Source: Desulforudis sp.
Lineage (GTDB): Bacteria > Bacillota > Desulfotomaculia > Desulfotomaculales > Desulforudaceae
Assembly: GCA_019084485.1 (NCBI GenBank)
Contig: JAHRFU010000018.1
Coordinates: forward strand, 1 to 47,047
Length of the DNA: 47,047 nt
Direction: 5' to 3'
Part shown: positions 1 to 47,047 of the stretch, piece after piece
Position numbering within the stretch: position 1 is the first letter of the stretch
Layout: each line of letters begins with the position of its first letter
The notes under the pieces: model-generated
Told to the model about the DNA's origin: nothing
Seen by the model: only the letters and a program-made list of their open reading frames with translations
The model's database searches: none
Program-made: the position numbers and the translations under genes

Positions 1-138
1 TACGGCCCGACATTGGCTATATTATGTAAATGGTGATGTGAAGAGCCGTATGCCTTAGTTGGGCTAGTACGGTTCTGTGAGGGGGGCTGGGACAATTCGT
101 ACACGCAGAGGTTCAAAGAGTCCCGCTTCTACTCGACA
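1..138 (+). mobile_element. 3' end of a group II intron (domains V and VI)
   Basis: Positions 43-75 form a domain V hairpin: it opens GAGCCGTA, has the catalytic AGC triad at 44-46, and closes GTACGGTTC. Positions 76-138 fit domain VI, with a long arm (GGGAC near 92 pairing with GTCCC near 120) and the usual CTTCTACTCGAC end. The window begins inside the intron, so the 5' domains and any intron-encoded reverse transcriptase lie outside. The exact 3' splice site, near 136-138, is inferred from the family pattern. Confidence 0.75.
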
Positions 139-226
139 CTATTTCACGACGTAATCTACCCCACCACCTGTCGTTTTGTATCATAGAAGGCTTAGAACGG
201 GGATGTGTCTTACATACGAGAAAAAG

Positions 227-355
227 TAGCCTGTCCCCGATTCCCGCCCTGAGCAGATTCCGCTGTCACGTACGTGTTTGTGTAGGCAATCCCTCAGGAA
301 AGCGCACAGCACCAGACAAAAGTTTTCATCATTCGTGGTGCCGGTCGTTGGACGG
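227..355 (+). repeat. Dispersed repeat, copy A
   Basis: About 130 bp recur at 35153-35288 in the same orientation, roughly 80% alike by eye. The shared blocks are CCTGTCCCCGATTCC, GTCACGTACGTGTT, then GGCAATCCCTCAGGAAAGCG followed by CACAGCACC, TTCATCATT and GTGCCGGTCGTTG. No protein is recognisable in any frame. Just downstream (359-377) a GGGG-cgactgt-CCCCTTTT hairpin resembles REP-like motifs elsewhere in the window. It may be a non-autonomous element or the edge of a larger one. Confidence 0.7.
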
Positions 356-12074: not shown

Positions 12075-12465
12075 TAATGACCTTCGCTCCGGCTACCACA
12101 GATTTCTGCGTAGCCTATGACAATCTTTCGACTGCCACAGACCATTACGAAACCTATGACAACCTTTGCTCGACCAAAGCAGCTACCTTGAGAGCCACTG
12201 ACAATCTTTCGACTGCCAGTAACCCTAACCTCGTATAAACAAAGCTCCGGCAACCACTTTGATCTTAGCTCGAACAATATGCCTCTCTTACGACCCAGAA
12301 ACAATCTTTCGACTGCTCCTGAGCCTGCCAAGAAACATATTGCTCTTCCCGCTGGCCGATATCGAGCCTTAACTTAGACCCGATATCAACCTTTGGCCGA
12401 CTACTACCGAGCCTTAATGACCCGGTAGCAGTCTTGGCTCGGCCATTACGAACCCTTGTAGCGTA
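12075..12465. repeat. Degenerate tandem array, about nine units of roughly 40 bp
   Basis: Related units start near 12079, 12119, 12158, 12200, 12261, 12300, 12338, 12384 and 12424, mostly 38-46 bases apart. The best copies share GACAATCTTTCGACTGCCA (12119 and 12200, and with two or three changes at 12300). Others read GACAACCTTTGCTCGACCA or CAACCTTTGGCCGAC. Inverted repeats are embedded, for example GGAGC/GCTCC at 12068-12090 and CCGAGCC/GGCTCGG at about 12408-12442. The period is not a multiple of three and no good reading frame crosses it, so it is taken as non-coding. Together with 11921-12074 it fills the gap after spoIVA. Confidence 0.6.
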
Positions 12466-34945: not shown

Positions 34946-35152
34946 GCTCCCCTTCAAAACACCAACACACGATAGGTGCAGTGCGCGCTGAGGGTATTGC
35001 CGGAACAAACGATAGGGAGACTTGTTATGACAACACGCCTTCGGGGCTCTCGAACTTTGAAACGCTTGTATTTTGTTACGAATCTAGGGAAGCCTCAATT
35101 GAACTGTGTCCAATCAAAAATGCGCAGTGAGCCGCGGATCAGCGTCGACCGC
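34946..35152. other. Non-coding stretch after mltG
   Basis: No convincing gene. A frame from 34976 to 35266 runs into the dispersed repeat and has no recognisable protein features. GATAGGGAGACTTGTTATG at 35011-35029 looks like a ribosome site and start, but the frame it opens is the same poor one. Probably relic sequence. Confidence 0.4.
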
Positions 35153-35288
35153 CTGTCCCCGATTCCTCGCCCGAGGCGAACGAGTAGATTCCTCTGTCAC
35201 GTACGTGTTGTGCAGGCAATCCCTCAGGAAAGCGCACAGCACCTTCACAAAAACTTTCATCATTGATTGTGCCGGTCGTTGACCGGCG
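35153..35288 (+). repeat. Dispersed repeat, copy B
   Basis: The second copy of the element at 227-355, same orientation and about 80% alike by eye. It ends in a perfect hairpin GCCGGTC-gtt-GACCGGC (35271-35287), of which copy A keeps a decayed form. There is no open frame in common. Confidence 0.7.
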
Positions 35289-40547: not shown

Positions 40548-43500
40548 ATGGGGAAAAAACGAGTACACGAGATAGCCAAAGATTTAGACTTGAACAGCAA
40601 GGACATAATCTCGGCCCTTACGGGTTTGGGCGTTGAGGTCAAGTCTCACATGTCCACCGTTGAGACCGGAGAGATAGACAAGCTGTATCAGACCCTCGGT
40701 AAAGCACCGGGCAACCGGCCAACTCCGGCGAAAACGGTAGGCCAGCAGGCTGCAGAGCGGCCTGCCTCACCTAAACCGGATGCGCCCAAAAGGTCTGTTC
40801 GTCTCAGCCAGTATGGACCGGGACTGGTGGATCGGGTTCCGCAGCGTCCGCCGGATCGGCGGTATGTCGACCGGCCGATGCACATCCCGGTACCAATTCC
40901 GAGGGCTGGATCAGAGCAAGAAGTGCTGCAAGAGACGGTACCCAGGGCGGCCGAACCTGGCCCCGCTGCAGGCCGGCCGGTGGCCTCGGAACCGGCACCG
41001 GAACGTACAGAACCGCAGCCGCAGGCCGAACCGGATCGTCCGACCCCGACTGTTACCAGGCCCCCACAGCAACCCAGACCATATGGTCAGGGTGCGCCGC
41101 ATCCGGCACAGCACCGGCCGCATCAGGGAGACCGACCGGCACCCGGCGCCGCCCCCGGCGGCAGGCCTCCACAGTATGGCAATCGTCCGGCACCCGGCGG
41201 GCCTCCGGGCAGACCGCCGCAGTACGGTAATCGTCCGGCACCCGGCGGGCCTCCGGGCAGACTCCCGCAATACGGTAATCGTCCGGCACCTGGCGGGCCT
41301 CCGGGCAGACCGCCACAGTACGGTGGTCGTCCCGCCCCCGGTGGAGCACCTGGTGGACCCCCGCAGTATGGTAATCGTCCGGCACCTGGCGGGCCTCCGG
41401 GCAGGCCTCCGCAGTACGGTGGACGTCCTGCACCTGGTGGACCCCCGCAGTATGGTAATCGTCCGGCACCTGGCGGGCCTCCGGGCAGACTCCCGCAGTA
41501 CGGTGGGCGTCCTGCGCCCGGTGGAGCACCCGGGAGACCCCCGCAGTATGGTGGCCGACCGGCACCCGGCGGACGACCGACCGGTGGGCCGATTCTGAGT
41601 AAGAATATACCCAAACCGCCGGCACAGCTTGAAGCGACAAAGCCGGATAAGGGTGCGGGTCAGCAGCGTTTTGCCGATCGGAAAGAGAAGGGCAAGGGCG
41701 GCGACCGCAGGCGTCCGTGGGAGAAAAAGGGCGCTCGCGAGCAACAGACCCGTACCCGCCACCGCCGTCCGGCCAAACACGATACTCGCTATATTCCGCC
41801 TTCAGAGCGCAAGCCGATTGTCGTTTCCGGTGCGCTTACGGTTAAGGACTTGGCTGAGAAGGCCGGTATTAAGGCTGCAGAGATCATCAAGAAGCTGATG
41901 GCGATGGGCACCATGGCTACGATTAATCAGGAAGTTGATGCTGATACTGCGGTTTTGATTGCCGAGGATCTCGGATTCAATGTCGAGTTTAAGCCTGAAG
42001 TTACGATCGAAGAACGCCTGGAGTTTGAGTCTGAGGAAGATATCGATCCAGAGAACCAGGAAACCAGACCGCCGGTTGTGACCGTGATGGGCCACGTCGA
42101 CCACGGAAAGACTTCACTTCTGGATGCGATCCGGGACGCCAATGTTACCGCCACCGAAGCGGGCGGTATTACCCAGCATATCGGTGCTTACCAGGTGAGG
42201 CATAACTCTAAGCGGATCACCTTTTTGGATACTCCCGGGCATGAGGCCTTCACGGCGATGCGGGCCCGGGGTGCCAGGGTCACTGACATTGCGATCTTAG
42301 TGGTTGCAGCCGACGACGGTGTGAAACCGCAAACAATTGAAGCGCTAAACCACGCTAAAGCGGCTGGTGTGCCGATGGTCGTGGCTATTAATAAGATTGA
42401 TAAACCCGATGCCAATCCAGATAAGGTCAAGCAACAGCTGGTCGAACATGGACTCGTCGCCGAAGAGTGGGGCGGGGAAACCATTTTCGTACCAGTCTCG
42501 GCGATAACCAGAGAAGGCCTAGAAGACCTGCTGGAAATGATTCTGCTTGTGGCCGAAGTCGCAGAGCTCCAGGCCAACCCCAAGCGGGCGGCCCGGGGTA
42601 CGATCGTGGAATCACAGTTGGATAAGGGACGCGGCCCGGTGGCGACCGTGCTCGTCCAGAACGGTACCCTGAATAACGGTGATGCTCTCGTGGCCGGCGG
42701 CGTGTTCGCCCGGGTTCGGGCCATGATCGACCACAAGGGTCGCCGGGTGGTCAAGGCCGGTCCTTCTGCCCCGGTGGAGGTCCTCGGTTTTTCCGAGGTC
42801 CCTGAGGCTGGTGTACCCTTCTACGTGATCGAAGATGAAAAAATGGCCCGGCAGATTGCCGGAAAACGCCAGGAACAGAAACGGGCCGAGGAGCTTAAAG
42901 GCCCGGGACGCCTGTCTCTGGAGGATGTCTTCAAGCGTATCCAGGAGGGCGAAGTCAAGGAACTGCCCCTGATCATTAAGGCCGACGTCCAGGGCTCAGT
43001 GGAAGCTTTGTCTCAATCGCTTGAGAAACTGAGCACGGAGGAAGTGAAAGTGCAACTCGTGCACCAGGGCGTGGGCGCAATCACGGAAACGGACGTGATG
43101 TTGGCTTCGGCTTCAAATGCGATCATTATCGGCTTTAACGTGCGTCCGGATGTTAATGCCCGTAGAGCAACGGAGCAGGAACACGTGGATGTTCGGCTCT
43201 ACCAGGTAATCTATGATGCCACGGCTAACGTCAAGGCCGCGCTCAGCGGACTACTCGATCCGGAATACCGTGAAGTTGTTTTGGGGCATGCTGAAGTGCG
43301 ACAGGTGTTCAAGGCATCGAAGATCGGAACTATTGCCGGTTGCTACGTTGTGGACGGCAAAATCGCCAGGGATGCCAATATCCGTGTGGTGCGTGACGGT
43401 AAGATCGTACACACTGGAAAGCTCGATTCATTAAAGCGTTTCAAAGATGATGCCAAGGAAGTGGCACAGGGTTACGAGTGTGGCCTGACCATCGAACGCT

Positions 43501-45877: not shown

Positions 45878-46807
45878 TTGGATGTCCGAAGAGATTTTGC
45901 CGGTCTGAAGCAGCAGTACAAGAATGTGGCTCTTGGTCTGGGCAATTTTGATGGTGTGCATCGTGGGCACCAGAAGCTGATTCGCCGGTTAGTTACGGAG
46001 AGCCACGAAAAAGGAGATGTATCGGGGATCCTCACTTTTGATCCACATCCCCTGGCTGTGCTACGGCCGGATCAGTGCCCCCCGTTTCTGCTTTCTCAAC
46101 AGGCTAAATTTGAGGTTTTGGAGCGGCTGGGCGTGGAGTTGGTTGTCGCTTTGCCCTTCAACTATGAGTTTGCCCGGCTGACCCCCTACGACTTTGTGAA
46201 AGAAATTCTGTGTCGTGAAATGCAGGTACGCTCGGTGGTCGTAGGCTACAACTTCGCATTTGGACACCGTGGGCAGGGGACGCCTGATACTCTGGCCGAG
46301 TATGCGCATCTGTGCGGATACTCGGTAAGTGTGATCCCGCCGGTGATGATGGGCGACGTGGTGGTCAGTAGTACGCTAATCCGTTCCCTACTGTTGGAAG
46401 GCCGGGTTGAAGAGGCCGCGCGATTCCTGGGCTACAGCCCATTCGTGGATGGTATGGTAATTCAGGGAGACCGCCGCGGTAGCACCATCGGTATCCCAAC
46501 GGCTAACCTTACCATGCGGAGTGAATTGGTCATTCCCGCACGAGGCGTATATGCCGTTAAAGTAGAGGCTCACGGGGAATGCTATGGTGGAGTGGCGAAC
46601 ATCGGTTTGCGCCCGACGTTTAAAGAAAACAACACCGAGTCCAACATCGAGGTTCACATTCTCGACTTTGCGCGAGATCTTTATGGGCAGGAAATACGTG
46701 TTCATCTGATCAGCCGGCTGCGCGACGAGTGCAAATTTGCCTCAGTACACGATTTGCTTGCGCAGATCAACCTGGACATTGAGGCGGCCCGCCGGTGCTT
46801 TGCGGAA
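45878..46807 (+). CDS. ribF: Bifunctional riboflavin kinase / FAD synthetase, 3' end broken by a fold-back
   Basis: The first 310 residues of RibF, which makes FMN and FAD. The FAD-synthetase nucleotidyltransferase domain (GNFDGVHRGHQ, DPHPLAVLRP) comes first, then the flavokinase domain (about 190-305, GSTIGIPTANLTMRS, ANIGLRPTF). TTG 45878 lies eight bases after GGGGAGGG; TTG 45872 is too close to that site. After codon 310 (46807) the plus strand runs into inverted sequence and the frame stays open to 47023 with a foreign tail. The minus strand (46917-46885) instead gives ten more residues, DIGDTALVPE, and a stop, which is probably the real C-terminus (320 residues). Confidence 0.9.
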
Positions 46808-46835
46808 AGCCCACGGGTACACACCTCACCGCCAT

Positions 46836-46864
46836 ATTTTAGCATAATCCCACTTTGGTGTAAA
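46836..46864 (-). promoter_or_regulatory. Sigma-A promoter on the minus strand of the fold-back loop
   Basis: Minus strand: TTTACA (46864-46859), an exact 17-base spacer, TAAAAT (46841-46836), followed by GGTGAGGTG. If the minus strand is the true orientation, this drives whatever follows ribF; rpsO is common there but is not in the window. Confidence 0.65.
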
Positions 46865-46884
46865 TGTTTAGTATCGGTTATGTA

Positions 46885-47047
46885 TTATTCCGGAACGAGT
46901 GCTGTGTCCCCTATATCTTCCGCAAAGCACCGGCGGGCCGCCTCAATGTCCAGGTTGATCTGCGCAAGCAAATCGTGTACTGAGGCAAATTTGCACTCGT
47001 CGCGCAGCCGGCTGATCAGATGAACACGTATTTCCTGCCCATAAAGA
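46885..47047 (-). pseudogene. ribF: Inverted 3' copy of ribF
   Basis: Reads the last 43 shared codons of RibF from the window edge inward, then DIGDTALVPE and a TAA stop at 46887-46885. It is 5'-truncated by the window edge. The tail is a sensible RibF terminus and is followed by a promoter, so this copy probably shows the native 3' end of the gene. Confidence 0.85.

Follow-up and report, generated by a model that had tools for sequence, protein, structure and literature searches.

An exact inverted repeat at the end of a Desulforudis contig is very probably a fold-back chimera of amplified DNA fixed by the assembler

Small flip-flop inversions in genomes are hairpin-mediated and occur between short inverted repeats. 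Inverted chimeras are also made in the test tube. In multiple displacement amplification (MDA) with phi29 polymerase, more than 85% of the chimeras are inverted with an intervening deletion, and they involve priming by short complementary sequences (Lasken and Stockwell 2007, PMC1855051). According to a hotspot study, the overlaps at such chimeras peak at 7 nt, with more than 95% of them within 3–13 nt, and the distance between the joined segments peaks at 80–280 nt (PMC5372508). Palindromic (inverted chimeric) reads are also reported after whole-genome amplification (PMC6218980, PMC13265396). A study of Fennoscandian deep groundwater used MEGAHIT with a k-max of 141, and some of its samples were amplified because of low DNA (PMC8275790).

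The window analysed here, a stretch of 47,047 nucleotides, is the whole of one contig (C59), and its right end is therefore a contig end. At this end, positions 46678–46807 and 46918–47047 form two inverted arms of 130 nt each, 100% complementary, around a loop of 110 nt, and the right arm stops at the last base, 47047. This reproduces to the base the repeat described in an earlier sequence-only reading, in which 130 bases of ribF recur as a perfect reverse complement after a 110-base loop. As no other inverted repeat of at least 30 nt exists anywhere in the window, a chance origin can be excluded. The segment also gave a low folded-strand energy (z about −6), but this value is due to the artificial arms that the segment still contained and does not count as evidence for a natural hairpin. 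The features of the contig end are as follows.

45878–46807, plus strand: ribF (riboflavin kinase/FAD synthetase), codons 1–310 of an expected 320, true up to the junction; from Pfam and the congener RibF.
46678–46807, plus strand: true fold-back arm (3' part of ribF); from complementarity, and colinear with the congener.
46802–46807, plus strand: inverted microhomology GCGGAA, 6 nt, at the junction; its partner TTCCGC is at C73:191–196, the start of the downstream flank.
46807/46808, no strand: chimeric junction (template switch); the loop is joined to the orf/rpsO side on C73, and the congener has ribF-loop-orf-rpsO.
46808–46917, minus strand: loop, 110 nt, genomic but inverted here, with the last 10 codons and stop of ribF, then a promoter-like site; the identical 110 nt lie at C73:81–190.
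46836–46864, minus strand: sigma-70-like promoter TTTACA-17-TAAAAT with TG before the second hexamer; from the sequence match, with TTTACACCAAAGTGGGATTATGCTAAAATATGGCGGTGAGGTG identical in the congener.
46918–47047, minus strand: artefactual copied-back arm (3' part of ribF, reverse complement), running to the contig end; from complementarity and the k = 141 graph.

The product of ribF matches the Pfam families FAD_syn and Flavokinase and is 84% identical to the 319-aa RibF of the nearest named relative found, the metagenome-assembled genome Desulforudis sp. SURF_60. A second genome of the same genus, G001, has an equally close RibF (84%) and may be that same organism. On the plus strand, the reading frame at the contig end runs through the loop and then into inverted ribF, and the automatic ORF there is 399 aa long. 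It is the minus strand that reads a proper RibF C-terminus, RRCFAE-DIGDTALVPE, with its stop at 46887–46885; the last 10 codons and the stop (DIGDTALVPE) occupy 46917–46885 inside the loop, and RibF of SURF_60 terminates in RGCFAEGGQNVGLVP followed by a stop. The C-terminus, the stop and the promoter TTTACA-17-TAAAAT thus lie on the inverted and not on the forward side, just as the sequence-only reading had it. That reading had also proposed a comparison with the 3' end of ribF in a related genome, and SURF_60 supplies it: the ribF stop, a conserved promoter block, small orfs and rpsO follow each other in unbroken order.

The only other copy of the 110-nt loop in the genome is found at positions 81–190 of another contig, C73. 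The start of C73 is itself folded back, with arms at 1–80 and 191–270 (80 nt each, perfect reverse complements) around the same loop as in C59. Downstream of the loop, C73 carries a small orf, rpsO (615–857) and then an apparent pnp, which we take to be pnp by eye and from the usual gene order. Writing A for the ribF side, L for the loop and B for the orf/rpsO side, the end of C59 reads A-L(rc)-A(rc) and the start of C73 reads B(rc)-L-B. The A side finishes with GCGGAA and the B side opens with TTCCGC, so that both fold-backs turn on a single 6-nt inverted microhomology. In G001, a homologue of the loop follows closely downstream of ribF and is on the strand of that gene. This loop position, together with the mirror pair of contigs and the gene order of SURF_60, indicates by sequence comparison that the true chromosome order is ribF (A)-loop (L)-orf, rpsO (B). 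The small orf after ribF encodes 76 aa, has no Pfam match and is intact in SURF_60; on C73 (147–288) it is apparently internally deleted and out of frame, which is either real or another amplification error.

The source genome, related to Desulforudis, comprises 2.34 Mb in 137 contigs and is rated 100% complete. We surveyed 239 usable ends from nearly all contigs (13 right ends of long contigs and 11 short contigs reading N were left out), with runs of N excluded from the fold-back search and 543 random interior pseudo-ends as controls. Fold-backs whose exact arms measure 25 nt or more were found at 48 of the 239 contig ends versus none of the 543 controls, one of which had a 17-nt arm. When mismatches were allowed, 46 fold-backs began within 5 nt of the contig end; in 36 of these the arm is single-copy, and these 36 are therefore not multicopy hairpin elements. 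The loops of the 36 have a median length of 84 nt (range 29–243), large loops probably being under-seen owing to read length and k. At 13 junctions the partner contig shows the true flank, and these junctions share 3–8 nt of inverted sequence that differs between loci (GCGGAA, TTGCGGAC, TTCCG, TTCCATAT and others), as is expected from microhomology priming; no common motif or recombination site was found across the 13. A second mirrored pair consists of the left ends of C25 and C106, which fold back around the same 87-nt loop with the 8-nt microhomology TTGCGGAC, and these are probably neighbouring contigs. Contigs of the same size (C61/C62, C25/C86 and C32/C124) were compared as possible duplicates and are not duplicates.

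Repeats of other kinds are present in the window and the genome. Multicopy intergenic repeats occur at window positions 1–320 and 35113–35243 and at the ends of C3, C18, C48, C58 and others. In 1.9 Mb searched, GGGGACAGGCTACTTTTTC has 20 copies, 10 of them near piece ends, and AGGCAATCCCTCAGGAAA has 22; these repeats are REP-type in look and appear to lie behind many other contig breaks. C5, C70 and C90 also contain roughly the first 150 nt of the window. Within the window, ACAATCTTTCGACTGC occurs three times at 12083–12316, spaced and with diverged sequence in front of the copies, and is absent elsewhere in the sequence searched. At 41109–41627, the part of an apparent infB (IF-2) that encodes the N-terminal region contains 48-nt repeats in tandem, which code for a proline/glycine-rich unit of 16 residues.

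The contig ends also carry the signature of the assembler. An exact overlap of 141 nt with another contig is present at 85 of the 239 ends, and overlaps of 99, 119, 127 and 129 nt at 1–5 ends each, a pattern characteristic of a de Bruijn assembly with a largest k of 141, such as one by MEGAHIT. All exact fold-back arms are shorter than 141 nt (longest 136); this is as expected, since any longer arm would have to repeat k-mers that the contig already contains. Fold-backs occur at 43 of the 154 ends that have no 141-nt overlap versus 3 of the 85 ends that have one. In a simple graph built at k = 141, the ends of C59 and C73 were reproduced by fold-back molecules whose arms were cut at 130 and 80 nt, and these molecules supply all 560 observed terminal 141-mers. 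When the full true A-L-B path was added to this graph, the contigs broke at the junction instead; the 141-mers that span the true path must therefore have been missing. Their loss through low coverage at k = 141 is our inference, plausible if the reads were little longer than k.

We then weighed what else could give such an end. A 110-nt loop that truly inverts in the population, as a phase-variable switch carrying the ribF stop and the promoter, with both orientations mixed by the assembler into fold-backs, would join both flanks to both loop ends across C59 and C73, as an orientation mixture does at small k, and a promoter is indeed present within the loop. At k = 141, however, a loop-flip mixture leaves 36 of the 560 observed terminal 141-mers without a source, and at none of the values of k tried did it produce an A-L(rc)-A(rc) unitig. 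Among the contigs of the genome, none with ribF-loop(rc)-orf was found, that is, the two orientations between the same flanks were not recovered. The flanking repeat is just 6 nt, with no motif shared with the other loci, where an invertible segment would have inverted repeats of recombination-site size in common between sites; no site-specific recombinase is thus indicated, and the orientation of the loop with respect to ribF is unchanged in the congener. We consider this explanation very unlikely, and more doubtful still is a promoter switch between ribF and rpsO that inverts in part of the natural population besides the in-vitro fold-backs. A genuine chromosomal inverted duplication of the ribF 3' end takes the assembled sequence at face value, but it would truncate ribF while the missing C-terminus sits in the loop in congener orientation, it would need a mirror duplication upstream of rpsO as well, and the same type of structure recurs at about a fifth of the contig ends. 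Its likelihood is negligible. The sequence-only reading had called a true duplication less likely because identity is perfect; the judgement holds, yet identity alone is a weak argument, and it is the mirror contig and the other ends that decide. We give as little credence to an assembly break at a natural REP- or MITE-like hairpin element present in many copies. Other contig ends often carry elements of this type, and the left end of the window is one of them, whereas the C59 arm and loop are found nowhere but at the mirror end of C73 and the arm is ribF coding sequence; for the right end of C59, copy number refutes this candidate.

A fold-back that came from library preparation and not from MDA (enzymatic fragmentation or end repair, single-strand snap-back, or PCR) and was then assembled would look alike. 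Library preparation, e.g. of ligation libraries, is also known to yield chimeric inverted reads (PMC13141652), and fold-backs can arise in further low-input library steps as well. The number of affected ends and the overlaps of 3–8 nt fit MDA well, though other steps are possible, and we regard a library origin as rather unlikely. It would change the step alone: counted within the artefact class, it leaves the artefact verdict standing.

We are thus highly confident that the end of C59 is a chimeric in-vitro fold-back from DNA amplification that was fixed by the assembler, and not a biological feature. Its structure, the mirror contig, the microhomology, the genome-wide recurrence, the 141-nt overlaps and the k-mer accounting are direct observations; phi29 MDA, in preference to another amplification or library step, is the most likely source. 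In the proposed mechanism, a 3' end at the ribF locus would have paired by GCGGAA/TTCCGC with the opposite strand, about 110 nt off, during the amplification step, most likely phi29 MDA, and would have been extended back along ribF to give ribF-loop-ribF (reverse complement). On the other strand, priming by the same two hexamers would have produced the mirror product, the B(rc)-loop-B with which C73 starts. With no 141-mers surviving over the true ribF-loop-B path, a de Bruijn assembler with a largest k of 141 would then have closed one contig inside each fold-back, so that the arms stayed below 141 nt. The fold-back product is symmetrical, and its sequence fits a 3' end that jumped onto a displaced strand and one that snapped back on its own strand equally well. 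The occurrence of both mirror events at one locus together with a missing true path can be accounted for only if a hot spot and low k-mer coverage coincided; C25 and C106 show a mirrored pattern like that of C59 and C73. A strand switch about 110 bases ahead followed by copying back, as the sequence-only reading proposed, is borne out by the mirror contig, the 6-nt microhomology, the excess of fold-backs at contig ends over interior controls and the MDA-like overlaps and distances, with MDA itself the probable route. Of its suggestion that the source was single-cell or amplified DNA, amplification is upheld and a single cell disfavoured: given the 100% completeness of the genome and the exact 141-nt overlaps at many of its contig ends, a metagenome assembly of amplified or low-input DNA is more likely than a single-cell genome.

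Read literally, the end of C59 would yield a spurious RibF whose tail is long and wrong (the 399-aa ORF), a spurious inverted duplication and a spurious interruption of the truB-ribF-rpsO-pnp region. Errors of the same type affect about one in five contig ends in this public genome. The C59 fold-back is not a real genomic feature and is relevant for data hygiene and assembly cleaning only. Exact terminal fold-backs whose arms stay below the assembler k give a simple indication of amplified source DNA that needs no reads, and contigs that mirror each other around one common loop are thereby revealed as neighbours.

Compared with the systems described above, C59 resembles flip-flop inversions in that a loop is flanked by short inverted repeats. 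A flip, however, leaves different sequences on either side, while C59 has the same flank on both sides, which is impossible by a flip. Like the palindromic reads reported after whole-genome amplification (PMC6218980, PMC13265396), C59 is sequence folded back on itself after amplification; those are long reads, whereas arms of the C59 type are limited by the assembler k. The agreement with inverted MDA chimeras extends to several properties. The second segment of C59 is inverted and lies 110 nt away according to C73 and the congener, and the segment distance is 110 nt at C59 against a median of 84 nt over the 36 fold-backs. The junction overlap is 6 nt at C59 and 3–8 nt at the 13 resolved junctions, and the fold-backs are spread over the genome (48 of 239 ends) without a site motif. 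Unlike the published MDA chimeras, those described here are known from assembled contig ends and not from reads, and at C59/C73 two mirror products displaced the true path.
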